The notes under the pieces are model-generated. The model did not search any database and was not told the origin of the DNA. It saw nothing but the letters and a program-made list of their open reading frames with translations. A DNA stretch of 64,000 bases from Siniperca chuatsi (taxonomy: Eukaryota > Chordata > Actinopteri > Centrarchiformes > Sinipercidae): the NCBI RefSeq assembly GCF_020085105.1, contig NC_058046.1, forward strand, positions 19,452,175-19,516,174. Reading direction: 5' to 3'. The position numbers and the translations under genes were made by a program. This document shows positions 5,901 to 48,263 of the stretch, piece by piece (the first letter of the stretch is position 1; each line of letters starts with the position of its first letter).

Positions 5901-8900
5901 ATATTCTCAGTCCTCACTTTGTGTAAAAATTACTTCTTAAGTGGAGTTCTAAAGACTGAGCTAGTCAAATCAAGTGGGTATTTTCCAAAGTTACCTTCCT
6001 TTTAGTACAAAATTCCCCCTTTTTGTTTCCTTGCCAACTGTTTCCTTGCTGAGGTGTGGCAGAGGGTTTATATAACAGAGGGAATTTCATACTAAAAGGA
6101 CTCTAACTTTGGAAGATACCCACTTGTTTTGTCTAACTCAGACTGCTGAAACCACATATTAGCTTCAGCTGAACTTGAGAATGCATTTTTACAAAGCATG
6201 AGGACTGTAGACTGTCCCCCATCCCTTCCATTGGAATTGCTTTAGGAAGGGATGTCTTTGCAGCCAGTACAGACAAGAGGAACAATTTCAGTAATGAATG
6301 ACTCTTTAAACGTAAACGTGGGCATGTGAGTATTGTTTTAAGACAGACTTGAAAAAATGTGAACATTTCTTTTAAGTTCTTACGTGTGAAACAAACAAAC
6401 ACACACAAACGTGTGTGAATTATTATTGTAATTTATAAAACTGTCATAAAATATCACAAAGTAAAAAAATCCCATGTGCCAAAAACACATTTGCTTTGAA
6501 TTCATTTTTTATGTGACATTCTGGACAGTGTTAAACTTACAGAGGTGCATAGAGACGTAAAGAGAAGTGAAGGAATGATACGTCACCAGGTTAACAGTTG
6601 TTTGATGACTAAGGAACTGGTATGTGATAAAATAGCCGTAGGTGACAACAGGGAAGTCTGGAGTGTTTTCATCCACACTCATCAACGGGTCTGGGATTCC
6701 CCTCAACCTGCCCACGCTCACTGTGGCTGATGCCCGGTCCACTTTCAGATCTGTAAAGAATAAGTTATTATAAACTGTGACCCCGCTCTTGACATGGATG
6801 AAATGACTGATGAAAGAGCTGCCAACTTAGGAAATTAAAAAGAAACAAGAGCCCACATTCAGAAGACTCAGACATACTAATTGACAGCAGAGTCCACAGT
6901 CTCACCTGTCATCTTGGCCAAGCCCCTGAAACAATGTCTTTCCTCAGGGGAGATCCATGAGGCGTCCAGGCAAGTAAGCTGTGGGAGACTGTCCACAGTG
7001 AAGCCCGGGTAGCAGGACGCAAGAGTGAAGGGGTTTCCCTCCAGCAGCAGCGTCCTGAGGCAGGGGAGCGTGCTCAAGGCGTTTAGCAGGGCCTGCTGGT
7101 CCTGAAACCCACAGTCACTCAGGTCCAGACACACCAGCTGAGGCCTGAGGTCAGAGACAGTCAGTGTTTTTACAGAACAGCAGTGTGTTGTATTGCAAGA
7201 TGGATTCAGTTTGCCTTTTTATTCATAACTAAACCTTGTAGCACAGATAGAATAGCAACAATGAAACATATAAAGCTGCTTTTGAATTATTAACTATTAT
7301 GTGCAGCAGGAAAGGAATTATTTCAGAAGACCACTCCAGCGTTTTAGTATAACACTTCCATAATGTTGGATGACTCATAATCCAACTCGTATATTTGCCT
7401 ATATATACCTACTTCTTTCAAATGCCACAACTCCAGTTGGTAATGCAGGCTTTCTGTTAAAAATTGAAAGTCTCTGTTCGGGACACTTTTTACAAATAAA
7501 TTGCAACTGCAAGCTGAAAAGTCACCCTGCAACACACACAGTGTGTGTTCAGGCCAGACATCTGTTGACAAATGTATAGAATTACTGATTCTATTAATTT
7601 GGATGTTTTCCCATGTTTAATTCATTCAACTGGTCATATCTTTTTTTCTTTTTCTTTTTTTTTGTATTCATTTAAAAACAGTTGTATGTCCCAGAGTTTC
7701 TGGACATGATTATCTAAAAGCTGTTATCTAAGGGTCTGTTGTCTATTATATAACTGTTGTCACAGGATGTGTCCTTGTGACGAATATACAGAACTTCATG
7801 TGTAAAACCGGTGGAGTGTTTGTAGATATTTACAATTCTGTTTAATTGATGACAGAGAAGGAAAGCTTAAGAAATTAATTTCCCCTATGGCTTATTAAAA
7901 TGATAACCATATTAGAGTGTTTCAGAGTATTTGCCTCCTGAAATGCATCAGGAAACACAAGTCAGTTTGTTCTCTAAAATAATAAAGGCTAAGGTCTAAA
8001 GGTCAAGTCAATTCAGTCAACTTATATTTATATAGCCCAATATCAGAAATCACAAATTTGCCTCTCAGCTTTAATATAAAGCTTTAGTATAATACTTAAC
8101 TTTGATATCAGCTGACAAAATGGGGCTGTGGGTGTAATTTTGTAAAAGCGTGAACTCCTTGCTCCCACTGAAACAACATTCAATAGATGTGGTTCTTTTA
8201 GGTGGGATCAAAAGATTTTCTACCTAGCAGCGTCAACTGCAGTCATCACTGTGTCATACTAACTGACTACTTCGGCAGGAAAACATCCAGTGTTGCCTCA
8301 GTAGGCGTTACCTAAGCAGACGTACTGCCATCAAATCACTACATGTGTGAAATCTGTCACAGGTAGAAAAACCATGACACGATGTGATGCCATTGTCTTA
8401 CCTTACAGACAACAACAACTACACAATTCTACTTGAGTTTTTGTCAGACTTGGTTTGGGTTGTCCTCTTTTGCAACCAGCTGACTTCCTGTGTGTGTGCG
8501 CGCGCACTGACCACTAACCAGTGGCTTCCTGTAAGGTGAGAGACGTCTTCTTGGGAACCCAGACTGTTTGAGCCGAGGCCGAGGTACTGTAGTCGAGGAG
8601 GCGGACGGCTGGTGAGACTGTTCAGAGCAGACAACCGGTTGGCATGTAACTCCAAAATCTTTGAAAGAAACATATTTACAATCTAACAGTTAATCATCAC
8701 TAAATCACAACAGTCACTGCACTTGCACTGCTGGACATACCCCAACCAGTGATGTCACAGCAGGTGTTTTATCTTTGATGTGATGGAAAAGCAGGAAAGG
8801 CAAAAGTTTTGTACCATTTTGTAAATCACCCTTTAATGACAAACTTTTGTAGAGGAAACCGGTGACTCGTTTAATCTGATAAGCTGCAGATCAAGTTGGT

Positions 8901-10109
8901 GCAGGACTGTGACTCACCTTCAAGGTGCTGGGAAGGGTTACTGCAGGGATTTCTGAGATATTGTTGGCACTCAGCACCAGTTCCTCCAGCTTTGAGAACT
9001 TTAACAGGCCGTCGTCGATTACAGATACCTAAACACAACACAGACAGAACATCAAGTACAACTTTTTACAATCGTGTAAAAGCATCAAGCGTGCTTTTGA
9101 ACAAAGTCAGGTACAGAGTTGTCACAAGACCTAAGTGGTTGCTCTGAGCCCCTCAGCCACCAGAGGACCCCCAGACAAATTGAAAATGTGACTTACTTTT
9201 GGGATCTTCTGTTTATTTTTTGTACCCAAATATTCATTTTGGGTCCAATTGCTGAGCTCTTCTGAGAGAAAACTTTAACTTGCCTTAATATTTTGGGGCC
9301 ATTATATCAAATCATGCATTCGGGGATGCTATAAGAATGTCAGGGATTGTATATTAAAGTAATAATAAGTACATTGAGAGCTTCGAAAACTGGAGATAAA
9401 TTCCTTGTATGTGTACACATAACTGTGTATATTGTTTTTATTTTAATTTTTTATTCTATTCTAATTCTAAATATTTGTTTATTATATGTTCTGTGTGTGT
9501 AGCATGAAGGGGGCTACAACTTTAATTTCATTGTGCAGCCTTGTGTTATAGAAATGTACCTTGAACCTTGAACTTGGCCAATAGAGCTGATTCTGATAAT
9601 ATGCTTTTCTTTTTTAAGAACTATACACTGTACAAAACAGGTATTTAAAGTACAACATTTAGGTGTAGGAGAAAAAAATCAGTACACTCACGTCCTTGTC
9701 CACAATTCGAAGTGTAGTAAAGTATTTGTAAATGAAGTCAGTGTGCAGATGTTCAGGTGTGAGCACAGCCAGTTGTCTCAGGGCCAGAGCTTGAGGGCTC
9801 CATGATTCATCATGCCGCCATGGAGAGTGAGGGCAGCTCAGTAGATCCAGGAGGGCATCTGTCTCCTCTGCCTCTGCTCCCTCTGTACTGTCTTTGGTCT
9901 TTCTCTGAGAACATAATGACTGTTTAATATCTTATACAAAATGCAAGCTACTGTGTGCAGTGATGTGAGTGCTTTTAACCGCTAAATAGACATGATGATT
10001 CTTGAAGATAATCTAGAAAACACTGCAACCAATTTACAACTAAAAAAACACTCACCCAGCTGCCATATCCACAAGGAAAGTCATTCAGACACAGGCGGTG
10101 AATGTGCTT
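2931..10109 (-). CDS. lrrc43: LRRC43, leucine-rich repeat protein (5' exon missing)
   Basis: Eleven exons were read on the minus strand: 10056-10109, 9692-9904, 8918-9028, 8519-8658, 6906-7144, 6587-6750, 4912-5083, 4291-4430, 4120-4209, 3308-3535 and 2931-3077. All junctions keep codon phase and give about 565 residues. The human protein is about 656, so an N-terminal exon is missing and I could not find it upstream of 10109. Leucine-rich repeats are visible as [27 protein letters not shown] and [11 protein letters not shown]. The C-terminal part is Lys/Glu-rich ([23 protein letters not shown]). The 6587-6750 exon needs the weak donor GTGACG to stay in phase, although a stronger GTAAGT lies just downstream. 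The position between CLIP1 and MLXIP matches human 12q24.31. The function is poorly known; an association with ciliated cells is from general knowledge. Confidence 0.88.
5806..6304. mobile_element. Foldback (long-inverted-repeat) MITE in an LRRC43 intron
   Basis: Two arms of about 210-220 bp, 5806-6018 and 6078-6304, are reverse complements at roughly 75-80% by eye. They flank a short centre of about 60 bp. Matching words include AAGTGGGTAT, CCAAAGTTA and TCCTTTTAGTA on the left, found inverted on the right. The element has no coding capacity. Open frames 5820-6005 (+) and 6133-6408 (-) are the two arms and not genes. Target-site duplications are not clear. Confidence 0.75.
8005..8060. repeat. 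Short dispersed teleost repeat fragment
   Basis: The text TTATATTTATATAGCCCAAT, followed by a run ending AAATCACAAATTTGCCTC, is a sequence I recognise as very common in teleost genomes. It lies in the LRRC43 intron between exons 8519-8658 and 6906-7144. The assignment rests on memory of the motif and not on a search. Confidence 0.45.
9425..9580 (+). repeat. Dispersed repeat, copy 1 (LINE-tail-like)
   Basis: This stretch shares long words with 34375-34515: TTATTCTATTCTAATT, TAAATATTTGT, GTGTGTGTAGCAT, and a TTTCATTGTGC core followed by a TGAACCTT-type end. The short 3' repeat ACCTTGAACCTTGAAC is typical of the 3' tail of L2-like non-LTR elements. Only the tail seems to be present; no reverse transcriptase frame is near. 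Confidence 0.5.
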
Positions 10110-12557: not shown

Positions 12558-12564
12558 TATATAA
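12558..12564 (+). promoter_or_regulatory. TATA box of the upstream cytokine gene
   Basis: TATATAA lies 60 bp upstream of the start codon at 12624, within GCGCTATATAAGCTCAG. Inducible cytokine genes commonly have such TATA-driven promoters with short 5' leaders, and the spacing fits a transcription start near 12590. Confidence 0.6.
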
Positions 12565-12623: not shown

Positions 12624-14066
12624 ATGTCTCATAGTAAAGGTAAGCTGTTTTTAAATGAAAGTTAAATAATTTAGGATTTTTTTTTTTCTGCAAAGAGTAA
12701 GAAAATTAAAAACTTGTCAAACTCACTGTCAAAATTATGTTGTGATTTCTGGAGTATTGCAAATAAGTGTTAAAGGAATAACTGAAACATTAACATTTTA
12801 CTACTTTACCAGCAGTTTATTTCCTTATGGTGTCTGCCTGATTAGTGAGGGACTGAAAAGTCTGAAGGGAAGCCTAAAATCTGAAATGAGCTTTTAAGCA
12901 ACATTCCCTTAAAATGTATTATTATAGAAGCAGAGTGGGGATTTTTCTGTAACAGCTACTTCCAAGGTGCATGGAGAAGGGAAAACTTAATCGTCAGTAC
13001 AGTGACAAAGGTCATTTGAATGACCATGATGGAGGCCACAAGCCGAAACGCAATGGTCTGACAATAAAGTTGTTCTTTATAGGCCTACTACATGTGTTGC
13101 TGGACTTTGAGTCTATTATTCTCTCTCAGTATAATCTTGAGTTTTGACTCTGTGATGTTGATTCTAGTTAGACTTGAGCAAGCTTCTGGTTGACTTTTTA
13201 TGCAGATGACAGCATCATATTTTTTGTGTATAACTTCCTGCAGAGCTCCTGCTTTCCTGCATTGTGATGATGCACATCTTCTTTATGGCCTCCGGATCAA
13301 CTGAATTTGGGAAGCTGCGAGAGAACATATTTCAGTATGTAGAGATATCCATGTGTGATCTACTGACGGCAGAAAAAGATTACGTAAGTAAACACGTCAT
13401 ACTTTAAGTTTATTAAGTATACAGTGCGTTGAAAGTGACACCAAACAACAAGGTCCTGCTTTCACAACTTTTACAACATATTTTTGAAATTCCATTTCAT
13501 TTGAGATGTATTCAGTGGTAAAAGCCAATTAGTGTTACACAACATAAAGGTAATACAAAGTCAACTTGCCTCCTCACTGTAGATGGAGGGACCTTTATTA
13601 AAAGTTATGACAGCTGACAGTGTCTAAGCTCTGCGCTCAATCATTGACTTTGTCATAATGACTTACACTTTCTTTTTAGGTGAAGCATATATTTAATGAA
13701 GATCCACCGATGAAATACACTTCAAAGAGTTTAGAGCCCCTTGAGGGAATAACTTTGCCTGTGGGAAACACCACGGAAGAAATCCATGCCTCCGTCTGTG
13801 CAATCACCGACTACCTGTGCAATCACCTGCCGCAAATCATCAACAATCACACTCAGGAGCACAAGAATGACATCATCAACAACGTTACCATGTTTCTAAT
13901 TCAGTTCAGAGGAGCAGTTAATAAAACCTTCAACACGAAACAGTGCCACAGAAAATATGAAACAACTTTAGACGATTATAAAATGAAAGTAATTGGTCTG
14001 CGAATCATTTACTCTGCCAGGCAATGGGTGGAGAGTGTATTAGGAAAAAAAATCTCCTGTGACTGA
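12624..14066 (+). CDS. Secreted IL-6-family cytokine (LIF/CNTF/M17-like)
   Basis: Three exons, 12624-12639, 13244-13383 and 13680-14066, join in phases 1 and 0 to give 180 residues. Residues 1-23 are a signal peptide with a hydrophobic core (LLLSCIVMMHIFFMA). The mature chain has predicted amphipathic helices, five cysteines and four N-glycosylation sequons (NTT, NHT, NVT, NKT). Exon 2 ends in helix A with KDY, and exon 3 opens with VKHIFNED. Human CNTF has ESY then VKHQG at the same intron, and OSM has DPY then IRIQG. This tiny-first-exon, three-exon plan is that of LIF, OSM, CNTF and CT-1. The locus, between LRRC43 and MLXIP, is where mammals keep IL31. It should signal through gp130-type receptors; that is inference. 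It could be the fish M17 gene or an IL31-locus paralogue. Confidence 0.72.
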
Positions 14067-14083
14067 AAACACTTTGGACAACT

Positions 14084-14195
14084 CATTTATTTATTCAATT
14101 ATCTATTTATGTATGTATTTATTTGTTGGTATGCTATTTATTTATATCTATATTTATTTATAGTTGCCAGTATTTATTTTATTTATATTGAATGA
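14084..14195 (+). promoter_or_regulatory. AU-rich element in the cytokine 3' UTR
   Basis: Directly after the stop codon at 14064-14066 there are at least eight ATTTA pentamers, some overlapping (TTATTTATT, GTATTTATTTG, CTATTTATTTAT). This is a class-II-like AU-rich element, the hallmark of rapidly degraded cytokine mRNAs, normally read by TTP/ZFP36 and HuR. A poly(A) signal AATAAA follows at 14283-14288. Confidence 0.85.
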
Positions 14196-14455
14196 TCTTC
14201 CACATTGTCTGTCAGCCTTGTGCTGCTTCATTCTGTATTCTGATACTGTACTATATGACCTTTTAAAATATAAATTGGCAATAATAAAATATTTAATTCA
14301 AACCACTTCCACTTCCATCTTTTTTTAAATTATTATTATAAATTATTTCATCTTTGGTTTCACTGCAAGACAATTTAAGGGTTCTTCTTCTATATCATGT
14401 GTCCATCACTGCAACTTTTTGGTGTAACCCATCATTAGACAGGAATCCTATAAGA

Positions 14456-14700
14456 TGCATGTTTGTCTTTCTATACTTGTGCGGACACTCATTGACATAA
14501 TGCATTCCCTGGCCCCTAACCATAACCATCACAACTTAATGCCTAACCTAAACCAAATTCTAACCTTAACCTTAAAACCAAGTCTTAACTTTCAGTTCTT
14601 TGAAGTAGTGAGGGCCCAAATGTCCTCACAAAGCTGAAATGTCCTCACTATTGGTTTAAAACCAAAATTGGTGCTCACAAAGATAGCAATACAAGCATGT
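14456..14700. mobile_element. Short terminal-inverted-repeat MITE
   Basis: The left end GCATGTTTGTCTTTCTATAC and the right end, ending GCAATACAAGCATGT, are imperfect reverse complements about 245 bp apart. The interior holds degenerate CTAACC-like repeats and AATGTCCTCAC. I recognise this as a common teleost element. It lies between the two cytokine genes and carries no gene. Confidence 0.55.
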
Positions 14701-15032
14701 GTTTTCTTATTTACATAATCACACAAGATAAAATCATCACACCACTTTAATAACCAGTGCTGTTACACATATTTGAGTTTTTTGCTTGACTGTAGGCATG
14801 TTACGGGATGTGTAGGTTTTTAAAAGGCAGAGATTCCTAAGAGGGAACCCCCAGAAAGTAAGACAGCACCCTGAACTTTTATGACTTTTTCTGTATACTA
14901 AAAACGCAGGGGAAAATATTAGGCCTAAGATGTTGATCTTTATCTAAGGAGCCCTAATAAAAGTGATCCTCGAAAGATGGATCAGAGAAAGTGTCACATC
15001 AGAGAGCCTGCTGATAAAAGCCTCCTGGAGTC

Positions 15033-16406
15033 ATGGATTGCCGTGCAGGTAAGCGTCTCGTGCGGTTCAGAGTCTATTTTTAAACCAGGCGGTCTTCCAA
15101 CTTCTGCAGGCAAAGTTGCGCAACACTTGGTGACTGCAGATCAGGCCTATCTGTCTGTGTGTGTATTCATGTTACACTTATCTCCACTGTGTGCTCTTTT
15201 ATGTCTGTGTTGCAGTTCTCATCTTCCTGTGCCTGCTTATTGCACAAGCAGCCTGCGTACCTCTCGGACAGGGAACAAAAAATGGGGCCTTAAACACAAC
15301 CATCAAGCTGATGCAGGAGGAGCTACGGACCGCTTTGGACCACCTCGTAAGCTTTTTGGTGCTTAATTAAATTTATTTACTAATCAAAACAGCTCGTATG
15401 GATATTCACATGCAGGGGTGGAAAGTTGCGAACTCTCTACTGTCTTTACTGAAACCTTTCCAGTGCTCCTATCTAAACTTTTATCGCTTTGATTTTCGAT
15501 TAAGTAGCCTCCACTACTTTTTGGGGGTAATTACAGTTTACAGTAATTCAGTTTTGGTACAACCAAAAGGATATTGGATTTGTAATCTGTTTTTTTTTCC
15601 AAATACAAAATATATGGCACCGCATTTAAAATGTAAGTACAGAAATAGGCTGTTAGCGACTAAATGTACTTAAAGTTTCATAAGTAAAGTAGCTTACTCA
15701 TTATGCAGAATGGCTCCTGTCTGTGTCATTATTGTTGATGCATTGACAAGAGATTAATCTGTAACAATGCATCATATTTTATAAACTGATGACATGTTGT
15801 AAAATCTGAATCTGCAAAGTAGCCTAGCCTAACCAGTAACTACAGCTGACCGATGACTGTAGTGGAGTAAAAAGTAGCCTACAATATTTCCCTCTGAAGT
15901 GTAGAGATGTGGAAGTAGGTCTATTAGGAACATAATATGGAAATACTCAATTAAAGTACAAGTAGCCTATGTCAAAATTGCACTTAACAACAGTACTTAA
16001 GTAAATGTACTTAGTTTACATCTCTTCATCCCTGGGGATTACTCATTGATTGAAACCTACCCGCCAAATCCGTCTCCTGCAGGCTGCACCCGGACTGCTT
16101 CCCAACAACTCCTGCATCTCCTTGAACATCACGGAGTTGGTCGGACAGGAGCAGCAGCCCCTCACCGCTCACCACCTCTCCTCCCTCCGCTGCTACATGC
16201 TGGAGATGTCCAGGCTGACCCCGGAGCTGTCGCATCAGCTGAAGAAAACCAGCCAGTACACTCAAGATATGGAGCAGATGATGAGCGGAGGGACAGCCAG
16301 TCGAAACTGCAGCCTACCCACCTTTGAGCGGGATATGCACGGTTATGTGTATGTCAGATGTCTGCTGCAGCTTCTTGACCAGCGGTTAAGCGAAGCAAAG
16401 TTTTGA
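15033..16406 (+). CDS. Secreted four-helix cytokine, IL-31-like candidate
   Basis: Exons 15033-15048, 15216-15346 and 16083-16406 (stop at 16404) give 156 residues. I start at 15033 (MDCRA) because only that frame joins in phase to exon 2; an upstream ATG at 14977 does not. Residues about 6-18 form a signal core (VLIFLCLLIAQAA). The mature chain has four sequons (NTT, NSC, NIT, NCS) and predicted helices: A, IKLMQEELRTALDHL; a middle pair around LSSLRCYMLEMSRLTPELSH and QYTQDMEQMM; and D, MHGYVYVRCLLQLLDQRL. Human IL-31 has the same order: VEELQSLSKML, IRAYLKTIRQLD, an NISVPT linker against NCSLPT here, then helix D. Being next to MLXIP also fits IL31. Resemblance is weak, as usual for such cytokines. 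It could instead be another gp130-family member. AATAAA lies at 16617-16622. Confidence 0.68.
15413..16034. mobile_element. MITE in intron 2 of the IL-31-like gene
   Basis: The left end CAGGGGTGGAAAGTTGC and the right end TTACATCTCTTCATCCCTG are inverted ends of the abundant teleost 'CAGTGGTGGAAAGTAACT' type element, probably hAT-related. The interior has its typical words GTGGAGTAAAAAGTA, AATACTCAATTAAAGTACAA and CTTAAGTAAATGTACTTAG. No perfect 8-bp target duplication is visible. The right end lies 48 bp upstream of exon 3. Confidence 0.7.
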
Positions 16407-18969: not shown

Positions 18970-21900
18970 CTACACATCTGTGTGTGTTACTGCCTGGATG
19001 GCTTCTTCAGGCAGCAGGGATGGATCACTAAGAATGGATGTGCTTGTGCTCAGCTGGCGAAGGGTACTCAGCACCACTGAAAAACAATAAACCACAATTT
19101 AATAACCATAACCGGATTGTAAAACACAGCATTTTGAAGCCAGCCGTCTTGCTGTGTATCCTTGATTCACAGTTCATTATGATTTGGGTGCTCAATACAA
19201 CATGACTAGGTGGGAGGCAAGACTCGGAAACAAAATTTAATGTTCTATGCTTTCCAGGACATTGTGGGCAAATTTATCATTTACCAGTCATTTACCAGGA
19301 CTTTTCCATGACTGCTACATTAAACATTCTCAGATTTTCCAGGATGCAAAAGAACCCTGTGTGTCATGCTGAGGACAATTAAAAATTGTCTTACAACTGA
19401 TGATTTGACTGCAGGGCACTCAGACAGATTTGAATCATTACATTTGAGGGGACGGCCCAGCTAGACATGGAACAAAAAGCCGGAGTGATAAACCTGCTTA
19501 ATTCAGTTTACTGCAGCGATGCAGGTCCAGCCTTCTAAAGCTTAGCTGAGAGCTGCAAAAACTGTGACTGAATGATAGAAATCTTTTGACGTCACCTTAC
19601 ATTATCAGATCCACTAAGTGTACTTGCTAAAGTCAGACTGAGTCAGGGAAAAAAAGCATATTATTTTGATCAGGGGGGTGATTAAAAAAAAAAAAAAACT
19701 ACTGGAAAGTGTGATCACCACTGTTTGCCAATGCTCTTGAAGCTGGAGTGATTTCATATATTATTAAAAAATGAGATGCACTGTTAAATTTCCTGTCATG
19801 TCACGGTTGCTTGAAAACAGAATAAAAGGCAGGAAAAAACAACCAGATAGTGACAGATAGGAAGTCTTGAGTAACTGAATTATCTAGATCTAATGAATCA
19901 ATGACATAACACTTTGCAGCTGGAAGGAAGTCCCCTCTAAGCTGGGCTGAAAATGATCCACAACTACTGATCCTTTCTGTTGCAACCATAGAGTAGGTGG
20001 GCTGGTGACGTGCAGTACCTTTGTGTGTCTGTGTGCCCGTGTGTGCGTGTTTGTGCTGGATGTCGAAGAGACACAGTCTTTTACTTACTGGGTCTGAGCA
20101 CTGGAAGGGGGCAGTGACGATCGAGCCATTGCAATGTGGTCTGACACAGCTCTGCTCTGCTTGTAGTTGACACCATCCCATTGAATGACTCAAAGAGAGG
20201 CTTGATAATGATGCTGAACTAGAATGGATGACAGTCAAGGATCAATTATAAAACTGAGTGAGACAAACACAATTCTGCTTGAGCAACAGTTTGGGCTCCA
20301 GACTTGTGTACTACATGACTAACGTCTATGTCTGTAACTTTTGTTTTACCACTTCGTGCTTCAATTTGTGGTTTGCTTAACCTGAAAAGTACGCAAATAA
20401 TACAATCTTGTCTTGTTACTTCAAGTATGACTCAGGTTGTACTTGATCTCGGAACAGCTCAGTGTGTAGACAACTCCCTCTAAAGTACAAAACTATTTCC
20501 CCATCTAAAACACAGTGAGACTGGTTAAATAGTCACAGTGATTTTTTGGTTATTTGTATTAACATTAAAATCCTCTAGGCACTGTAGCCAATGAATAAGG
20601 TTTAAATAAGTCTGTCTATATAGTCTGGACTAACAGTAGGTTGACTTTCCTCAAGAGTGATGGGAAAAATTTAAAATGTTTCAGTTATGTGACCTTTACT
20701 TTCCATTAAGTCTACATTATTGTGCATGACACAGGATATATCATTCTGTTATGTATCAGTCCAATCTGAACAAGATGCTTCTCAGACAGAGCATTCCAGA
20801 TCAAAGCAAAATGCTTACACCATACTCTGTGTAATTAATAAGCAGCAAACAGTGGACGTCAGTGTAAGCTCTTTCATTGAAGGATACAATCCAGAACTTC
20901 CAGTTCTGAAGAGTGCGGTTCTTTACGTATTCATTGAACTTCTCTTGCATGTGGTCGAAGCGATGCCGCCTGATGGGTGCCCCTGTTGCAGGTAGCTGCT
21001 CCTGACAAATGCTGTGGTTGAGCGGTGACAGGAGACAGAAACAGGTGTGAATTAGTGTGTTAAGTGACGAGTGAGATATATACGATGTTGTAACATACTT
21101 AATGGAGGTGTTGAGCTCCTCTATCTCCTCTCGCAGTCTCTTGATCTCTTCCTGCATCTGCTGCCTCTCCTGCTGGAGCTTCCCAATGTGCTCCACTGTC
21201 TTCGTTAATGTGACTGCATAACTGATCTAAATGTACAAAGTTAATGAATATGGTAGGGAGAAAGCAAATAAAATATTTAGAACAATATGTGAGGCAAATA
21301 CTGTGGACAAACATGGTCAAAAATAGTAATGTCCTGACACAGACTTACATTTGATTGTGACTTTAGAGTGGGAATCACGTTGCAGAGTGTTTTGAAGCCA
21401 ATGTTTATGTTTGATCGTCTCTTTTGCTCAGCAGATATGTGTGTTGTCCTCCGGCTCTGTCACACAACAACAGTGGAAATGTTACACAGAGGCTTACTGA
21501 GAGCGTGTCATATATTACAGAGGAAAGGAGGAAATGCTACTAATGTTACAAACTGGGTTATAGATTTGCCCAGGCATTAAATTCAGGATTCTACATGCTT
21601 TAACATATAAAGCCTGTGAAAGCCCTATATGTCATTCAAGTAATAACAATATGCTCACAAAAATGTAGCGATCACACTAGCAAACCATTTATACTAAGAA
21701 ACATAAACACACACAAACACAAACCTGATTTCGTTCATTCTTTACCAGAGGTGTACTGCTGCCGCTGATCAGTGACTGGGGACTAGGAACTTGATCTAAC
21801 CCACATGGTGATCCTTGATCTGATCCTGGCTGACTGTGAACTGGAAAGAAAAAACAAACAAATTTGTAACAAGTGGTAGGTTTGGAGTTATGATGTGCTT

Positions 21901-24900
21901 TCTGAGTAAACTCTCACCGACACTAGAGGAGGCTTTCTGATTTTTGCGGCTGGAAGAATACGACTTGTCTTTGGGGACAATCGGCTGGGGAGACTTCCGC
22001 GTCTGACACAACGTGAAATCCAGGAGCCAGAGAAACATGAAAAGACAACAAATAGACAAGAAATAAAAAAGAGGTACAAGAGTGAGAACCACTACAATAA
22101 AATATGATCTTTCTTTACTTTGTAACTGATCCCCAATCAATTTCACGTTTATGAATTACACACATCAGAGCAAAATAAACAGTGAGATCAAAATGCTGCA
22201 GTTTTGTCATTTTCTAATAATTTCAAGACCCACTGTGGCATAAGAAGAAAATGAAACAGTGAGGATGACACTGACAGAGCTGAAAACATACCCCTCTCTG
22301 GACCACATCTGTTTTTAGAGGTGTCGGTGTAACAATCACAGCATTGGCATGACCTGGGAAAGGGGCTGAGAGGGTGAACATTGACAGTAAGGCACTGCAG
22401 TGTTTATGTGCATTCATACGTGAACATCCATTAATGAGTTATCATTTTTGACATATGGGTCCCCCCTGCCTTTTTCCTCAGTGACTTTTCCATTTATGCA
22501 GGAAATAACCTCTGTAGTTAACATAACTCTGAACAGGTTTCATCTTTTTGAGCGTTTTAAATTGTATAATTTAATAGAAAACTGAATTGTACAAAGATAA
22601 CTTGTTCTATTAAAACAAAAGCAGGGGGTCCATTTCCTCTGCCGTCAGTTCTCCAATAAAGGCACAAAATCAGTGACATTATCAGTGGTACAATCCACAG
22701 TGACTCCGATATGCATTGAAAATTCATTGTAAATCAGTATGACAATATGAGTAAGAAAGGCTTGAGCGCTATCTTGTGGTAACTAAGTGTAAACAGCTCC
22801 ACTGCCAGATCAACAATGTTAAATGCAAAATTTCTCCAAATGCAGAATCAATATCTTGATCTTGAGATTAGAAACAACAGACCTGTGAGGATGAGGTGGG
22901 AGGGGGGGAGGGCGTTAGCAGGAGCAATCCTTTGCACGGGGCGGTTTTTGCTGGCACTGGATGACTGAAAGGGGCGAGGCAGGGCAAAAGTCTGAGGGTG
23001 CTGGACAGAAGTGGCAGGCAATGGAGCCAATGGTTGGAGTTGAGACGGAGGAGGTGGAGGTTGTGTGGATATGGCGCTATACTCTGAGCCGTGGCTGAAG
23101 GTGGTGGCTGCTTCACTGGATGTGACAGTAGAGGAGGCTGTGTGTGTAATCACAGATGGCACTACAGTCTCACCCAGCACTAAGGTGTTGTCCAAGGACG
23201 AGGGAACCATGGGTGTGGCAGAGGCCATGTCCTGACCTGGAAGGCACTGTGCAAGAGGATCGTGGGATAACGGCTGAGAGACTGAGGAAACTACCGCTTG
23301 ATCACTGGGCGCCGCCTGCCCAGGAAACAGAGGCATGTAGTTTTGTGCATAGGCAGCATCACCACCACCAGCACCAGTCTGGCTGATTTGACTGGTCATG
23401 GGAGAGGAGATGGGCAGGGGGCCAGGAGGGGAGATGTGGTTGCTTGTGAGTTGCATGGAGGACATTAACTGGGCCTGGCAAGGGATGACAAAAGAAAAGG
23501 GAACAAACAGACTTAGTCTTTGCTTCTAGTTCTATGTAAGTTCATATAGCTGGAAATGTTCTCTTTTCTGCTGGTTAAGATTTTGACAGTAAAAAGGCAA
23601 TCTTACTACCCATTCTAAACCTTTTATATGGTTTATTTATTTGTCAGCAATGACAATGTCAGAAGTGGATTCATTATTCATTTAAAAATTAAAGAATAAT
23701 TGACCTTTCTGGCTGCTCAATATTGACCCTGCAGCTTAATTTTCACAACTGCATCCAACTTGAACTTAAGTAAACACTAGTTTTCTTAATGCGACTGATT
23801 ATACACTAATGAAAACATACTTATAAATATTATATTCCATTTCTGCCAATAGCTCCTCCTAAATGTTACACACTGGACCTTTAAGTCCTAAGGATATACC
23901 TATATTGTTTTCAAGAGGGTTTATGGTACACAAATGAAGAATAGAATTTAAGATCCTTTTATTTGTTTAAAAACCTGTCCATGAACGTGCCCTTAACTAC
24001 ACTAACATGTTGCGAAAAAACGCCTTTGGCATGGCTCTGATACAGTTACTGTTATGTTTTGTATCTAAAAAAGTCAGACAGGGACTAATGGTAAAGCTGC
24101 ATTTATGGACCCAACTGAAAATCTGAAATATACTTTCACCAAAATACGGCTAAATAAATGACTTCTGAGGGAGCTTCAAGAAGGAAGACAGCATGAAAGA
24201 GAAGCTAAATATTTAGCCATATTTTGTGAGTTATTCTCAAAAAAATATTAACTTAATGTTAAGCAGTTTGAGCAGCAAGTCATGTATGAAAAGTGCTATG
24301 TAAATACAGTTTAGTAATATTATTATGTTACGTAGATTTTTTTGTGTAACTACATTAAACAGAAAGATGGTAGAAGATGTGGCAGAAATCCTTGTGAATT
24401 GACCAAAAAAAACTAAAAAAAGTCTTCAATCTAGGAAAAATAATACGGTCCTTGCACAAAGTCTCTTCGTAGTGGTGTGTGTTAGGGACTGTTTACCTGT
24501 GACTGAGAGCTGCTGCTGAGTAGAGGGGTGACAGATGATGCAGTGGGGGAAACAGAGGGGAAGGCGGTCTGACGGAGGCTGTGAAATAAGTCTGGAACAA
24601 GAGTCTCTATGTTAGCTAGAGGTTAGTAAAACCACACTACTGTTTGTGTTAGGCTAAGCCAACTGCTATAGCAGAGATACTAGAACATGTGCACTCGATT
24701 ATTATAAAGTGTGCACTGTTAGTGTGTGTGCAGTACTACTGGGTGGTGTCTTACTGCTACCTTGCAGAGGATCAAAAGAGTCCATGAAGTCCAGGTTGGG
24801 TTGTAAGGGGATGAGTCCTGGTTGGATCATGTCTGCATTCCCTGCATGAGCTGTGCAAGGTAAAGAGGCAGAGGTAGGGAGAGCATGGGGAAGACATCCA

Positions 24901-27900
24901 GTATTTTGACAGATACATAACATATTGCTGAGATCCAGCCTCAAGCAGCACTCATATCAGCTGTTACATAATTTAGCGATAATTATACAACCAAAAATGT
25001 AGAGAAAACAATGAACGAAAGACAAAAGTAGGAGTTTAGCTAAAAATCAATGTTAAATCAAGTATTAAGCGAGTAGGAAGATACTAAAAATTTAATTGTC
25101 TCTACTGATTTCATAAAATAGATAGCTGTTGATTTTCTCACCAATCTCCCTTGGATTGGGCCAGGCTATAGGCTGGTGTGAGGCCAACGTAGAGAATAAT
25201 GTGTCTGAAAACTCAGACATCAGAACATCCATGTCAAAGAGGGGGTCCATCTCCATAGGGGCAGGTGTTTCATTATGCTTACGAGACACACGGCGTGCTG
25301 CAGTCTCTTCATCCTGATAAAAGGAGACACGGAGCATGTCTGGAGAGACTTCCCCAAACAGCGATAGCTGCTCCTCTGGTCCCTTTCAGTATTCAAAATG
25401 CAACCATCAAGCCAGTTAATGAAAACACAAGCAGGCAGTGTTAAGTACAGCAAAAATGGGATGGCACTAAACTAATACTTTGTCTTCACACTTCATGCAC
25501 TACTCTAAAAAGAATTCATTTATATATATTTTTTGTCTGTCAGCAAATTTCATGCTAAATTAGGTGCAAGCAGTCAAAAGTACTTAGTTTGCATAGTCAA
25601 AGGTGATATGTTAGAAAGTATATAAATAATGTGAGGGTGACTGGGTTAGCATGGGTTAATTCCATCAGTATCAACATCTGGTTGAACAGATGCTGATAGC
25701 AATGTTCATGTTGATACTAACAGCACTTTGAAGGGCTGAGCATGAGGCATTTCTTCATACCTTAAGCAAGCTTGAGAGGTCTTCATCCTTGTGCTTCTGT
25801 AACTATAAAAGACTTAGTGAGTGCCACAGTAGTTAAATATTCATATTTATAAGCAGTCAAACAAACAGGATACATCTACGAAATGCCCAGTATCCCCCAG
25901 ACAAAAACAAATATTACAGTGTATTTATAGAATATTGAACAATACAGTACCCTTTTCTTAAAGTATGTTCTCCATTTGTGGTATTCTCTTATGACAATTT
26001 CAATTCTTCTTTTCCAGCATTTCCCATCTGTAGCAGTGGCCTGCAGAAGAAAGACGGAGATGGAAAATAAACCCATAAAGTCCATAACAAAACACACAGC
26101 ACAAAGAAAGGAAGTGACAAGGGAAACATAAAACAAAATGAAAGTGTTTGGGAGACATAAAATCATCCACAGGAGGATTTCGGTGACAAGAAACAACAGT
26201 CACTATTGCTGTTTGTACACCACATAATGATCACATTTTCCCTCAACTTTACCTCTGCAGGACGATGGACATCCATGTCTATATTTCCATCCAGGGGAGT
26301 CACAAAGTGACAAACAGGATTCTCCCTTTTCTCCACATCTGGGGGTAGAAAAACAACCTCAAAGTCACTCTCTGTTGAAATACGCAGTTCCCTTTTTCCC
26401 CCTCCCCCTCATACCGGTGAATTACATTTAGTATTTAAGAAAATAAATGAACATCTCATGGCACACATTACTTAAAAGTATAAAGATCACAAAAGTGGTT
26501 AAAGTGACTTCACTTCCTCACCAGCCATACTTTGTTGATTGATTTTGGGTCATAAACATAAAAGTGGCCATCACACATGGGTGTACAAGACATCCAAGAA
26601 GTGTCACAAAAGAATATTAATAATTACACAAAACATAAATCATTACACAACATTAAAGAATGTAGTTTATTGCACAGGTTTTCACTGACATCTCCAAATA
26701 TTTTCCTACTATAAGAAATTCTATTTCTTACATCATGTATGCGAACGGTAATAGCTCAGCTAATAGCTCATGAAAAGCTTGACCTAGTGTGCACTGTTGC
26801 TGTTAGTCATTGTCACAAAACTGCTCATGGCATGTAAACTAGGGCTGGGGCGATTCATCAACGTTATCGACGAATACGGCGATTTGCATATCGTGCGTAG
26901 GCGCGTCGCAATGTAGTATGGCTGCACCGGTCAATGCATGGATTACCCGGAGATCAAGCTGCAGCACAAAAACCTCCCTACAATCTCCCCTCGCTCTACC
27001 CCTCTGCATAGAAACAAACACAGAGAGAGTCTCCTGTTTATGTAGGCCTACTTATGCTGTTGTTTTGTAAAAGCTTGTCATTCACAACCACATTGGTTTC
27101 GATCGATTCGATAGGCGATGTCATTAACAACAAGCTTTTTGCGGCTCACCTGCTGCTGTGAAAACGGAATCGCAGGTGAAAAAATGTAAACTGGAGTTGT
27201 GTTTTTTGGTCAACTTTATAAAACATACTGCTGACAAAGAAAGTCAACAGTGCAGACAGATACGGGGAGAGAGAAACAGATGGGACAAGCCAGTGTGTGT
27301 GTGACCAGAGGTGTAGGTGTGCGCGTGTGAGTGTGGGGAAAAGAGAACTGAAGGGAAAAGCAAGGTGAGCAGATTAAAGTAGTTTGTGAGTAAACACTAA
27401 AATAAGGTGGAGAATTAAGAATAATTAAAATGGTGACATAATAAATAAGCTACTAGAAATAGGGCAATATATTAATGTGTTCTTTCAAATATTATATTTT
27501 TAATGCCCTGTAGTACATACAATTGTATATTACTATTTATTACTATGAAAAAATAATCTTTAGAATAATCGATAAATCAGTCGTTAGATTAATCGACTAA
27601 TCAAAGAAATAATCATTAGATTAATCAATTAAAAAAGTAATCGTTAGGTGCAGCCCTAATGTAAACAAACTGTTACTGCTGCAGAGAGTTGCAAAGACTG
27701 TGCCAATATTTATCTTTAAATCATAAAAAAATAGAACTCAGTAGTAGTGTTCATGATTTTACAGATAATGTTGCAAGTACTGTTAAGTGTAGGTTGTATT
27801 AAACATACACATGTGAACTGAGAGGAAAAATAAAGCCTAGTGACAAGCCTGAAAAAGGCAATATTACTGGGGCTATACCAGATCCTGATGTCTTCACACA

Positions 27901-30900
27901 TGCTGCAGCTTGATTTAAGAAGTGTTAAGTTCAAGTTACTTTAAACTAAATGCTAAACAGTCTACACTCTATGGAAAACAAATGAAAGAGATGGTGTGGA
28001 ACTCTTACACTGCATATACCAGGCTCTCCATATGGCGTTGTTGAGGCGGATCTTGTCTCTCCAAAGCAGTTTTAAACCTTTGAAGTTCTTCCATTTGGGA
28101 GATACCAACTTACCACTGAAAAGACATGAAAATTAACAGTGAAATAATTTCACAAGTGATATGAGACATGAGACACTCTATGTAACAAATGCAATGGCTT
28201 AACTCCACAAGTAGATCACCAATATCTCGACAAAAATTCAAACCCTCAGAGATCACAGTGCTCTCCTTTGTGTTCTAGCAGACGAAGCCATTTGCTGATA
28301 TTCTTGCTTGTACAGGATGAAAAACAAATTCCACAGACTTGCTCACTCAAAAATGCTCACTGTATCTTCTACCCATAATAACACAACACCTTAACTTGGA
28401 TTTGTTTTATCGTGCATCTATTCTGCTCAACTTTAATAACTTGACACCAGAAAGGAAGAAATGTTGTCTCTGTCTGTTCTTTTAAAATGTCACCTTACAA
28501 ACCTCATTTTGACATTAATACCGACGCTTGACAATGACCCCAAGCCTTAATGCCTAAGAGTGTAACACTGAGCAAACGTCCATCACTCCATAAAAGGTAA
28601 GAGAGCACCATTCGGTGACAGGAGTTACATGTCTGATGGACTGGCCTGAATTTGGCTTCTAATTTCCAATGCACTAGGCTCTGGAACAATGTGTCTATTT
28701 TACAAATAATTACAATATACAATAATTAAAAATAAGTACATTTTAAAATAACTTTGACCTAAAAAAAAAAAAAAAAAGGCTTGTTACTCATTGCCGACAG
28801 AAAGAGCTATTTGTCTTTTGCCACAAGAACAGAAAAAAGCTAAACTCTACCCTGAGAATCCAATTGTACAAATAATTTAAAAAGAAAAAAAGGTAAAAAA
28901 GGTACAGGTCACCTTGACCAACACTGAAAAGACTTCAAGGAATAAAGCAAGCAAAACAAACAAGAAGGAATCTGCCAAGGTCAAGCTCAAGTTAGAATGA
29001 TAATTACAAATGTGATATGGAGACAAGGAGTCAGATAAACCGAGACAGCACACATGTGCGCTACTAAATGTAAAACGGGGTGACATTGGAGGAATTCATT
29101 AGTGTGCACTGCTATGGCTACAGTATGTGAAATTCATGATTATAGCACATTACTGTAGCCGTGGACAGTCTGTTCACAATTTTGTTCTAAATTGAACAGA
29201 AAATAATAAACATCTAAGTTGCCCCATAATGCACAGAAACTTTGTGGTCTCACAAAGAATGCAGGTATGAAGTTCAACATCTAACTGAGTGTATTAATAC
29301 TACTGCACTATAACGGCAATACACACCAGCTTTTAAAAATGTTTTTCAAATGTCAAATGACATGACTAAAGTTTATGTTTCATTTTAACAAGACAGGAGA
29401 TAATGCTTATTTACAATCTGCTTTGACAGGGACATGTTTATCACAATCCAAAAGGGTTAGCTCACAGTTTCTCTCTTTCCATCCTTCCTGTCCTGTCTTT
29501 TTTACACTCTGTCCTTCCTGTTCAGTCTTTCCGATTTTTTTCCTATTGTCATTTGTGTGCTTACTTTCTGTATGATGAGTCCTTGGGAGTGGAAAAATCT
29601 GTTTCAATAAGTAGGTAAGTAGGTAGGTAGTCTAGCTTGGTGCAATGAAGAGAGCAGAGGCAGTATTATAGGGGAAAACTTTGCAGATCCACCAATGTTC
29701 TTGTTGTGAGTAAATGCTCTCTCATGTACATAAATACTCTTCACTTTTCCTTTTCAGATGAATGACAACAGCAGCACAGTAACTGGTAGTGCTTTACTGA
29801 TCTATAATTAGTCTTCCTGGTGAATCCAAGTTGGTGCCATTTGCAAAGTCAGAGGGAATCCTCTGAGCAGCTGGCTCTGCATCAAGTAACACTACAGCTG
29901 TAAACAGAGAACCATGGGTAACGTGAGCCTAGCAATGTCTAGCATGTCATTATTTCTTTTTACAATTTACCTCTTAATATCTTGTTACCGTCAACTTCAT
30001 TTAAACCCAGCTTATGTTTGCAACTTTTAGTTTGTGTCTTAACAATTACACTGCTTTTACATTGTCTTAAGCCTATAAACTTATCAACATTCGCTTAAAG
30101 GATGGCATAGTCTGGAGAATAAAGTCCAGCATATAAAACATTTATGACGTAAATAGGAAAATGGTGGCACAACAAGTGTTTAAGTGTTGTGATATTAGGT
30201 GGTAACATTATGATGAACCTATAATTGTTCTTTGTCCATGTGTAGTGCTGAAACTTCTCACTCTAGCAATGTAAGTCAAGTCCAATTTTGATTTTTGTTT
30301 AATAATTTTGTAAAAATTCAGATTACATTACAGACTAAATACTTTTTTATGCTGTTTGTTAGACTAAAGATTTGAGGACATCTGGTAACTCTTAATGGGT
30401 CACTTGTCAGTATTTGTGACATTTTGTAGACTAAATGTTAAATCCAAAATTAAATTGACTGATACTTAAAACAATTATTTCCAGAGGACCCGGCAGATTT
30501 AGTAATTTGATAATTGTGCAGACAGCCAGAGTAAAAAGAAAAAGTTAAAGAGTAAGTTTGGGATTTGTTTGACTGATCGCACTCTCTCTCTCTCCCAAAA
30601 TAATTTGGACTCTCTGGACTAAAATTATTAAAGTAGTTGGTTTTCACAGCGATAGTGACAGAGAGAGGCATTCCCCCCCACATGCACACACATTATAGCA
30701 ATTTGACGTTCCGTCTTGCTCAAGGACAACGAAAGGCGCCAAGAATCGTACCACCGACTCTGCTCTGCTGATCTGCTCTAGCACCTGACCCACAGCAGCT
30801 CAGCAAGAACAGTATGTAATCTATATGTCATGACGTTGACTGTCTTATTTAAAAATGACAGAACAAGTTTGGGCTGTTTCTGCCAGTATTCCCTTTTGGC

Positions 30901-32339
30901 ACTATCAAAACAAAAAACTATTAAAGAATGGTATCAGATCCATCTGACAAGATTTACGAGTTGCACAGCCCGTGGCAACTTGGGCAAGACACGCCAAAGC
31001 TCTCCTGGCAGCGTATTTTGAAAGATTACAGTTTGTTCCTGGTTTCCTATTGAATCGTTCAGTTAGAACAAAGATCTTTCTTTCACAAGCAATGAGAGCG
31101 TGATCTAAGTACATCAGGCCCTGTCCTCATAATATCTCAACACTAAACCAGTGGTGAAAAGTAACAAGTACATTTACTCAAGTAATGCACTGAAGTACAA
31201 ATTTGAGATGCTTTTACTTGAGTATTTCTATTTTGTACTACTTTATACTTATAATCCACTACATTTCAGAGGGAAATATTGTACTTTTTACTACACTACA
31301 TTTATTTGACTGGATTTTACAATAAATACATATCATAAGCGAGTCGTTAGCATTTCCCCTCTAAACTTCTCAGACGGGTTAATTCAAACAACTGAGGCTC
31401 AAAGAAGGAAAATCATCCAAAATGAAATATGAATATAAATGTGTGTGGCAGGACTTTTTTTCATACCCCATTAATCATCTCACAACCCCCCAGATTTATC
31501 TTGTGACCCTTAGGAGGGGGCTAAACTAACTGTTTAGGCCTATATGTTAAAACTGACTCTACCTTGATCAGCTATAACAGTAAAATGCTGCCAAAGCATT
31601 GATGCATTAGTAATGTAATAACGTCATACACAGTATAATAATATATCAGTCACGGGGACCATTTTTCTGCAGTTTATTTACCTTTTGCTGATAATATTTC
31701 TGTACTTTCGCATTTTAAGCAGAATCTTGAATGCAGGACCTTTACTTGTGATGGAGTATTTTGACTCTGTGGTATTGGTACTTTTGTTGTAAAATGGTCT
31801 GAACACTGCACCAAACTGACTACAAATCGTGAGTGGTCAAGCAGGAAGTTGCATGAAGAGGAGACTCGTGACTGCAATTTCACACCAGTCTCCCGTTGCC
31901 TGACTTCACTGATCTGGACATGATAACAGAGAGGTCAACATGCATATGGCGAAGAGCTAAAGTGAAAATGAATGTTCCCACGCGAATACAGGGTGGTGAG
32001 GTGTGTTGTAACTTACCTGTACGCAAGAGTCATACACTCAAAGAGTTTGGTAAGTGAAGCGTCTATGGAGAGGTGCGACATGCTCGCCTTGCCAAAATGA
32101 TAAGTCTGACAGGTCTGCTTGTTGACAGTGTCGAAGTCGTAGCCTTTCTTCGGGGGGTGCTCGCTGTGAGGCGAAGACACCATGAAGTGTCCACTGTGGA
32201 TGATCTGAGACTCCAGCCCGTCTGACCTCCTCAGCCCCAGGTGAGCCTCCTCCGGGTCCGAGTCGTCCTCCTGCTCCTGCTTAATGCTCGCCGGTGGGCG
32301 ACGGTAATTCTGCCGTAAAGACATCTCTCTAGTAGCCAT
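18970..32339 (-). CDS. mlxip: MLXIP (MondoA), bHLH-ZIP glucose-sensing transcription factor
   Basis: Seventeen exons on the minus strand: 32017-32339, 28009-28115, 26253-26338, 25951-26040, 25761-25802, 25142-25382, 24761-24850, 24497-24591, 22883-23474, 22292-22365, 21918-22002, 21725-21840, 21349-21456, 21099-21226, 20888-21011, 20089-20218 and 18970-19076. Every junction is in phase, giving 845 residues (human 919). Exons 1-7 encode the conserved Mondo region: IIHSGHFMVSSPH, the cytoplasmic-retention segment RDKIRLNNAIWRAW, and the transactivation-linked NADMIQPGLIPLQPNLDF. The large exon 9 is Pro/Ser/Gln-rich and poorly conserved. The bHLH starts at HISAEQKRR (exon 13), the zipper is LQQERQQMQEE with LREEIEELN (exon 14), and the dimerisation/cytoplasmic-localisation domain follows with TLQNWKFWI and FSIIIKPLFESFNGM. 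The protein pairs with MLX and drives TXNIP-type targets on glucose-6-phosphate rise. N-terminal sequence favours MLXIP over MLXIPL. Confidence 0.96.
23803..23882 (-). repeat. Fragment of a 'GGTCCAGTGTGTAA' MITE
   Basis: The end CTCCTCCTAAATGTTACACA followed by CTGGACCTTTAAG is the reverse complement of the left end of the fuller copy at 45115-45364. The shared part extends through CATACTTATAAATATTATAT. It lies in an MLXIP intron and has no coding content. Confidence 0.65.
26832..27666. mobile_element. Non-autonomous hAT-type element with perfect target duplication
   Basis: The element spans 26840-27658 (819 bp) with ends TAGGGCTG and CAGCCCTA. It is flanked on both sides by the identical octamer ATGTAAAC (26832-26839 and 27659-27666), the 8-bp duplication expected of hAT transposition. 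Subterminal runs rich in ATCGATTAATC-like words are typical of teleost hAT MITEs. The centre is unrelated to the smaller copy at 56701-57042. It has no transposase frame. It sits in MLXIP intron 2. Confidence 0.85.
31149..31820. mobile_element. MITE of the CAGTGGTGGAAAGTAACT type in MLXIP intron 1
   Basis: The left end CAGTGGTGAAAAGTAACAAG is followed by TACATTTACTCAAGTAAT and CCACTACATTTCAGAGGGAA. The right part has GTATTTTGACTCTGTGGTAT and decays near 31820. This is the same family as the copies at 15413-16034, 52345-52800, 61600-62381 and 63290-63730. It is non-coding. Confidence 0.7.
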
Positions 32340-32559
32340 GTCGGTAACTCACCAGACAAATAGCTAACGTTAGCCAGCAAGCTAGGACAATAAAAACTCC
32401 CTTTCATGAGGCTTGCCAACAGCGCTGGAAAACGCGGTTAAGGCTGACTGTTGGTTAAAGTTTATCAGCTTCGTGCTGTACAGTCCGACTCCTCGGTTCA
32501 CTCATTTTTAAACCTCGCTGTTGGTAATTAATGGCCCATGTTAACGTGTTGTTGTCTTG

Positions 32560-33213: not shown

Positions 33214-34348
33214 CAGTGGTGTGAAAAAGTCTTGAATTCTTATTTTTTTGCATGTTTGTCACACTTAAATGTTTCAGATCATCAAACTAATTTAAATATT
33301 AGTCAAAGATAACACAAGTAAACACAAAGTGCAGTTTTTAAATGAAGGTTGTTATTATTAAGGGAAAACAAAATCCAAACCTACATGGCCCTGTGTGAAA
33401 AAGTGATTGTCCCACCTGTTAAAACATAACTTAACTGTGGTTTATCACACCAGAGTTCAATTTCTCTAGCCACACCCAGGCCTGATTACTGCCTCGCCTG
33501 TTCTCAATCAAGAAATCACTTAAATAGGACCTGCCTGACAAAATGATGTAGACCAAATCTTCAAAAAAAAAGCTAGACATCATGCCAAAATCCAAAGAAA
33601 TTCAGGAACAAATGAGAAAGAAAGTAATTGAGAGCTATCAGTCTGGAAAAAGTTATAAAGCCATTTCTGAAGCTTTGACGAAAACACGGAACAGTGGTGT
33701 ATCTTCCCAGGAGTGGCCGGCCAACCAAAAAGGACCTGGAAGACTTGCTGTGATAAATGGAAACATGAATTCTGCTGTCTACCAAAAACTCTTGAAGGAG
33801 AATGTCCGGCCATCTGTTCGTGACCTCAAGTTGAAGCGAACTTGGGTTCTGCAGCAGGAAAATGATCCAAAACACACCAGCAAGTTCACCTCTGAATGGC
33901 TGAAGAAGAACAAAATGAAGACTTTGGAGTGTCCTAGTCAAAGTCCAGACCTGAATCCTATTGAGACGCTGTGGCATGACCTTAAAAAGGCAGTTCATGC
34001 TCGAAAACCCTCCAATGGGGCTGAATTACAACAATTCTGCAAAGATGAGTGGGCCAAAATTCCTGCACAGCGCTGTAAAAGACTCATTGCAAGTTATTAC
34101 AAACGCTTGATTGCAGTTGTTGCTGCTAAGGGTGGCCCAACCAGTTATTAGGTTTAGGGGACAATCACTATTTCACACAGGGCCGTGTAGGTTTGGATTT
34201 TGTTTTCTCTTAATAACAACCTTCATTTAAAAACTGCATTTTGTGTTTACTTATCTTTGACTAATATTTAAATTTGTTTGATCTGAAACATTTAAGTGTG
34301 ACAAACAAATAAGAAGTCAGGAAGGGCAGACACTTTTGCACACCACTG
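33214..34348 (+). mobile_element. Tc1-like transposon, internally deleted
   Basis: The element runs from CAGTGGTGTGAAAAAGTC to a mirror end ...CACACCACTG and is flanked by TA on both sides (33212-33213 and 34349-34350), the Tc1/mariner target. Long inverted repeats of about 215 bp share CACACTTAAATGTTTC, CAAAGATAA and AACAACCTTCATTTAAA. At 1135 bp it is about 450-500 bp shorter than a complete Tc1 element, the loss being inside the transposase. Confidence 0.92.
33582..34151 (+). pseudogene. Tc1 transposase, 189-residue deletion derivative
   Basis: One open frame starts with the first helix-turn-helix (SYQSGKSYKAISEAL). It then jumps, near residue 33-50, to the C-terminal catalytic part: GPGRLAVINGNMNSAVYQKL, a QQENDPKHTSK motif with the second catalytic Asp, and SPDLNPIETLW with the third acidic residue. 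It ends AAKGGPTSY like other teleost Tc1 proteins. The usual length is about 340 residues. The second DNA-binding helix-turn-helix and the first catalytic Asp region are absent, so it cannot be an active transposase. The reading frame stays open across the deletion. Confidence 0.9.
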
Positions 34349-47500: not shown

Positions 47501-48263
47501 CGAAACGAGCGCCTCAGGACAAACTTGCATGTGTGTCCAAATGCAGTCAACATGTCTTTGAAGCACTCTCCACCTCGAACAGTGAGCCCGCTAATGCTGA
47601 TGACTTCCTGTCAGGCCTGATTTATGTTATGCTGAAGGCCAATCCACCTCGCCTACACTCCAACATGCAGTATGTGATTCGTTTTGGTCTCCCTCACAGT
47701 CTGATGGCAGGAGAGAGCGGCTACTATTTCACAAATTTGGTGAGTTTATTGCAAAGTTACTCATCCAGCGAGTACACCACAGGATGCTGTGTAACGAGGT
47801 CAGTTGATCAGTCATGCATTTTGCCCTTGTCCCCCTGTTTTAGTCTTGTGCGGTGGCCTTCATTGAAAAGCTGGATGGACCAGCACTCAACCTCAGTCCA
47901 GAAGAGTTTGAGGGCTACATGCTGCACCAGCGTGCTCCCTCTGCAGGAAACAAGAGGCTGCAGGTTGCCAGCGACACACAACACCTGTTAGAAGAGCTAA
48001 AAGGCAGACAGGAGACGCTGGACCAAGGGATGGATGCTCTCAACGTGCAACTACAAAAGTGGGTCCAAGCAGTTCATTCACAACTTGATGAGGCAACAGC
48101 CCAGTTTGCTGTGGTGCAGAAGGAGATAACAGCTCAGGCTGAGCTCTCACAGGCTTTTTCATCCCCATCTCATGATTCATCACTGCAGGGGGATGACAGA
48201 GATCAGTCTGTGCTGGTGCTTACAGATCAACATGTCGAAAGTCCGAAAGATACAAACTGTTAG
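44582..48263 (+). CDS. rabgef1: RABGEF1 (Rabex-5), Rab5 guanine-nucleotide exchange factor
   Basis: Eight coding exons: 44582-44739, 45426-45553, 46292-46443, 46541-46610, 46686-46821, 46911-47005, 47483-47739 and 47844-48263, giving 471 residues (human 491). The start [20 protein letters not shown] parallels the human N-terminus. An A20-type zinc finger follows ([11 protein letters not shown], then CSKCW), the ubiquitin-binding module. Next are the linker [14 protein letters not shown], a helical bundle and the VPS9 catalytic domain: [59 protein letters not shown], with the catalytic Asp in the ADDF segment, and [17 protein letters not shown]. The C-terminal coiled coil ([20 protein letters not shown]) would bind Rabaptin-5. 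It acts on early endosomes. The linker is more diverged than usual, so this may be a fish paralogue and not the strict orthologue. Confidence 0.92.
45115..45364 (+). mobile_element. MITE with GGTCCAGTGTGTAA ends
   Basis: The left end AAAGGTCCAGTGTGTAACAT and the right end ATCCTACACACTGGACCTT are inverted repeats 250 bp apart. The family is common in teleosts. It sits in RABGEF1 intron 2. A truncated relative lies at 23803-23882. No coding capacity. Confidence 0.8.
47028..47410 (+). repeat. Teleost short dispersed repeat
   Basis: The block starts AAAGGAATAGTTTGACGTTT and contains TTGGGAAATATGCTTATTC, GAGTTGGATGAGAAGATCAA, and CAGGCTAGCTGTTTCCTGTC with TTATGCTAAGCTAA. I recognise this as an abundant teleost repeat. 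It fills most of the RABGEF1 intron between exons 46911-47005 and 47483-47739. Confidence 0.7.

Follow-up and report, generated by a model that had tools for sequence, protein, structure and literature searches.

What occupies, in a ray-finned fish, the chromosomal position that holds IL31 in mammals? The question is raised by a stretch of the Siniperca chuatsi genome (NC_058046.1; contig C5 of the 719 Mb assembly G000), of which 64 kb, referred to here as the window, were analysed, the gene models being read from genomic DNA. Two genes, A (12624–14066) and B (15033–16406), both on the + strand, occupy the interval between genes recognised from their open reading frames (ORFs) as LRRC43-like and MLXIP-like; position 12624 is the first base of the gene A start codon and 16406 the last base of the gene B stop codon. 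The answer that we consider likely is that these are two small secreted helical cytokine genes of the gp130 (IL-6/LIF) family at the mammalian IL31 position, gene A specifying a four-helix cytokine of the LIF/CNTF type.

Gene A has three exons and a 180 amino acid product, and gene B, also with three exons, a product of 156 residues. All four introns have GT-AG borders, with phases 1 and then 0 in each gene, and each protein carries an N-terminal hydrophobic leader and four sequons. These features confirm an earlier note on this DNA, which had described two adjacent small secreted-protein genes at this place. The parts of gene A are:

12558–12563, + strand: candidate TATA box of gene A (TATATA), 66 bases 5' of the ATG
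12624–12639, + strand: first exon of gene A, with the ATG, the initial part of the signal peptide and a GT donor, phase 1
13244–13383, + strand: second exon of gene A, completing the signal peptide and encoding helix A, with AG/GT sites and a phase 0 end, aligned with homologues P0001 and P0004
13680–14066, + strand: third exon of gene A, encoding helices B to D; residues 152–155 form the YxxK motif
14085–14295, + strand: AU-rich 3' untranslated region (3'UTR) of gene A, with a poly(A) signal at 14283

Gene A is a real gene, since it has 14 homologues and its 3'UTR contains 11 ATTTA elements. The homologues were recovered by a profile search (best E-value=4.2e-69), a search with the single sequence having given three; nine belong to environmental contigs and the other five to named fish. 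These five sources (Pampus argenteus, P. punctatissimus, Solea senegalensis, Boreogadus saida and Arctogadus glacialis) are all acanthomorphs, and no homologue has a functional name, those from named fish being annotated as 'hypothetical' or 'unnamed'. The 11 ATTTA elements lie within 264 bases, where shuffled sequences averaged 2.2 and none of 2000 reached 11, and this count is the maximum on the + strand of the window. The codon scores of the gene A exons (-0.004 and -0.066 bits per codon) are uninformative in so AT-rich a gene and lend no support to coding.

Pfam, searched up to an E-value of 10, assigned neither the two products nor any of the 14 homologues of A to a cytokine family, and searches of the PDB sequences with A or B singly gave weak, unrelated matches only. 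The predicted structure of P0004, the Solea orthologue rather than gene A itself, has a pLDDT (predicted local distance difference test score) of 84, and in a fold search its best matches were LIF, CNTF and CLCF1, then IL-11 and IL-6 among the matches listed. The model of a second orthologue, P0001, was poor. At the start of helix D, all of the aligned rows (15/15) possess a Y-x-x-K motif, placed where LIF, CNTF, CLCF1 and OSM have the FxxK that contacts LIFR or OSMR, with Tyr replacing Phe. Because the P0004 fold matches LIF, CNTF and CLCF1, and because YxxK stands at the FxxK place, the gene A product is most likely, as judged from the model of its orthologue, a gp130-family cytokine distinct from the fish LIF/OSM protein M17. 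The earlier note had expected a four-helix fold in both products; the P0004 model, of LIF/CNTF type, points to one for A, and the B product may share it.

No IL-31 chain appeared among the best 50 matches listed in each fold search with the P0004 model, the IL-31 content of that library not having been checked; the PDB sequence set includes the IL-31 entries 22pl and 9uk5. Pairwise comparison gave gene A no significant similarity to any of the cytokines compared, with z-scores below 2 in four settings and at most 2.0 (EPO) in another test. CNTF, CLCF1 and cardiotrophin-1 gave no significant score with A. The A product has a signal peptide, whereas CNTF is made without one.

The PDB sequence search with the gene A profile had IL-19 as its top match (E-value=0.073), which might place gene A in the IL-10 (class II) family instead of the gp130 family. 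We regard this as very improbable, since the match is not significant, not one IL-10-family entry occurs among the best 50 fold matches listed, and the YxxK site and three-exon layout fit the LIF group.

For fish, the available part of a 2016 review (PMC4929537) lists IL-6, IL-11, a CNTF-like protein and M17. Identity of A or B with M17 was considered and ruled out, because the sole match to LIF_OSM (PF01291) in this genome lies on another contig, C18 (25.6 bits, over the cut-off; Pfam E-value=8.7e-06), where it marks the M17 (LIF/OSM) gene (L001:1438–2229, - strand). Neither A nor B matches PF01291, and A is set apart from LIF, OSM and M17 by this lack of a match, by its Tyr in place of Phe and by its locus. 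As the positive control of the pairwise test, M17 reached z-scores of 7.9–9.9 against LIF and OSM in the four settings. By reading, its exon 2 ends in phase 0 beyond the helix A region, like those of A and B. The neighbours of M17 read as TESC-like and TAOK-like genes, neither being named by Pfam. In man, TESC and TAOK genes lie on 12q24, as does IL31.

Gene B, the less conserved of the pair, is made up as follows:

14929–15024, + strand: conserved stretch 5' of gene B (promoter or 5'UTR), matching the tail of P0007
15033–15048, + strand: first exon of gene B, with the ATG, the initial part of the signal peptide and a GT donor, phase 1
15216–15346, + strand: gene B exon 2, remainder of the signal peptide and putative helix A, with AG/GT sites and a phase 0 end
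16083–16406, + strand: gene B exon 3, frame open to the stop codon, with FERD at the FxxK place by reading

The two main exons of gene B score +0.25 (exon 2) and +0.34 (exon 3) bits per codon. Among 16 ORFs picked as controls from the ORF list of the window, 15 scored -0.014 or less, and the remaining one (+0.188) overlaps gene B exon 3 in a different frame. Because its codons are coding-like, gene B is probably a second, predicted gene of the gp130-family type. It might instead be a non-functional remnant or a chance open frame beside gene A; in favour of this, and weighing against the view of B as a cytokine gene, no homologue was found at an E-value of 0.001 among 20 candidates, and the window contains other ORFs of comparable length to which no gene name attaches. 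We consider such an origin improbable in view of the coding-like codons in both main exons, the four sequons (a number reached in 0.6% of 5000 shuffles), the consistent splice phases and the conservation of the upstream DNA in Pampus.

This last point comes from P0007, a homologue of gene A from Pampus punctatissimus, whose tail matches positions 14911–15024 over 27/38 residues, no other site in the window scoring above 25. Since the matching stretch is in a different frame from that of gene B, P0007 is probably a gene-prediction error; we take it to indicate that gene A and the upstream region of gene B are adjacent in Pampus too. A LIF-like reading of the C-terminal end of gene B was dropped, pairwise scores with LIF and OSM having given it no support.

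The genes on either side of the pair are:

6880–9028, - strand: LRRC43-like leucine-rich-repeat exons (ORFs 6880–7218 and 8891–9028), named by ORF reading
20804–32348, - strand: MLXIP-type gene (C-terminus 20804–21226, N-terminus 32016–32348), named by ORF reading

Pfam gave neither the LRRC43 nor the MLXIP name, a PDB search with the MLXIP-type C-terminus returned no match, and the sequence does not separate MLXIP from its paralogue MLXIPL. Pfam did name a CLIP1 zinc-knuckle exon among the flanks. Across the window the order is CLIP1 zinc knuckle, LRRC43-like exons, A, B, MLXIP-like gene, WD-repeat-like gene (its similarity being below family cut-offs), VPS9 gene and a PSMD9-like exon (a Nas2_N match slightly under its cut-off). 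The strands of the human genes at the IL31 block are consistent with those in the window. For the horse, the available part of one study (PMC6402180) gives the order HPD, PSMD9, WDR66, BCL7A, MLXIP, IL31, LRRC43, B3GNT4, DIABLO, CLIP1. We take the window and the horse IL31 region for the same gene block; the proposal of the earlier note that the pair lies in the IL31 slot is supported by the ORF reading, the CLIP1 exon and the horse list. B3GNT4, DIABLO and BCL7A were not seen in the window, no search having been aimed at them. Two other features of the window deserve mention. The VPS9-domain gene (47452–48260, + strand) reads as RABGEF1-like. It is not among the genes given for the horse IL31 block in the part of that study available (PMC6402180) and so may have entered the block in fish by insertion. 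A Tc1/mariner-type transposase copy (33552–34148, + strand) has a DDE_3 endonuclease match, together with a Sleeping Beauty-type helix-turn-helix match below its cut-off. An Rfam scan of the window gave no matches.

That A or B is a true IL31 orthologue, inherited from the ancestor that all bony vertebrates share but since diverged beyond sequence recognition, is quite possible, if rather doubtful. The slot and the surrounding gene block are those of the horse list, and the chains, like IL-31, are small and secreted. The best pairwise partner of gene B was mouse IL31 (z-scores of 2.5–3.1 in four settings), but M17 outscored it against the same protein in two of these settings (4.3 and 5.2). 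A profile of three IL31 sequences gave B 7.2 bits, reached by none of 500 shuffles, but scored human IL-3 at 9.6, the protein P0012 at 7.5 and IL-4 at 5.9, with A at -0.6. In the reverse direction, human IL31 was second by score against the gene A profile (4.1 bits; reached by 2 of 300 shuffles). By eye, NCSLPT, ahead of the putative last helix of the B product, resembles NISVPT of human IL31. The Pfam IL31 model had no match in this genome at an E-value of 0.001, the control likewise being matched in 0/14. Here, moreover, there are two genes in place of one, and no specific sequence match to IL-31. On the receptor side, the accessible portion of a zebrafish study (PMC1963337) reports GLMR (IL31RA) as absent and LIFR-a, LIFR-b, OSMR and gp130 as present, and a transcript of the elephant shark resembling both IL31RA and IL6ST is listed in the part of another paper to hand (PMC12162339).

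The pair may alternatively consist of fish-specific gp130-family cytokines which arose here, or moved here, independently and share the slot with IL31 by coincidence. The fold and motif of A indicate LIF and CNTF, not IL31, no specific link to IL31 is found in the sequence, and the named-source homologues of A are confined to acanthomorph fish. We nonetheless hold this origin to be unlikely, since the gene block matches that around mammalian IL31 and the chance arrival in this interval of a cytokine from the same broad family, as argued though not computed, is improbable.

Kinship of the pair with IL31 would be a matter of position and architecture, the sequence not deciding it. The interpretation in the earlier note is in all partly supported: its fish counterpart of the IL31 locus stands as regards the slot and the cytokine-like genes, orthology of either gene with IL31 not being demonstrated by sequence, and its suggestion of a duplication found no backing, as A and B are not within each other's eight best pairwise partners. 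The slot, with a gp130-type ligand in it, probably predates the split between fish and mammals.

If gene A is a gp130-family cytokine, one face of its product would bind gp130, and its site 3, formed by the YxxK at the start of helix D and the conserved AB loop, would bind a LIFR- or OSMR-type chain, with JAK-STAT signalling following; the AU-rich 3'UTR would probably make its messenger short-lived. Gene B would be the second member, in which the Phe of the motif is kept and Asp stands at the Lys position, and it may therefore use another partner. The receptors of the fish ligands of this slot would be gp130 together with chains of LIFR or OSMR type. With some hesitation, and at slightly less than even chances, we propose that the IL31 slot predates the mammals, that ray-finned fish keep two gp130-family cytokines there, one LIF/CNTF-like with a binding signature of LIFR/OSMR type, and that mammalian IL31 descended from such a ligand, its receptor partner changing once IL31RA was available.

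IL-31 is called unknown in fish in the available part of the 2016 review (PMC4929537), and a 2026 survey, likewise available in part (PMC13203501), found IL31 and OSM in mammals only. No fish IL31, or cytokine pair at LRRC43–MLXIP, was reported in the titles and abstract openings listed from the literature searched, a body that mostly leaves subscription papers outside and is not proof of absence. The immune repertoire of fish gains an unnamed, probably gp130-type cytokine, and the ancestry of IL31 can be tested on a concrete candidate, the conserved cytokine at the corresponding position.
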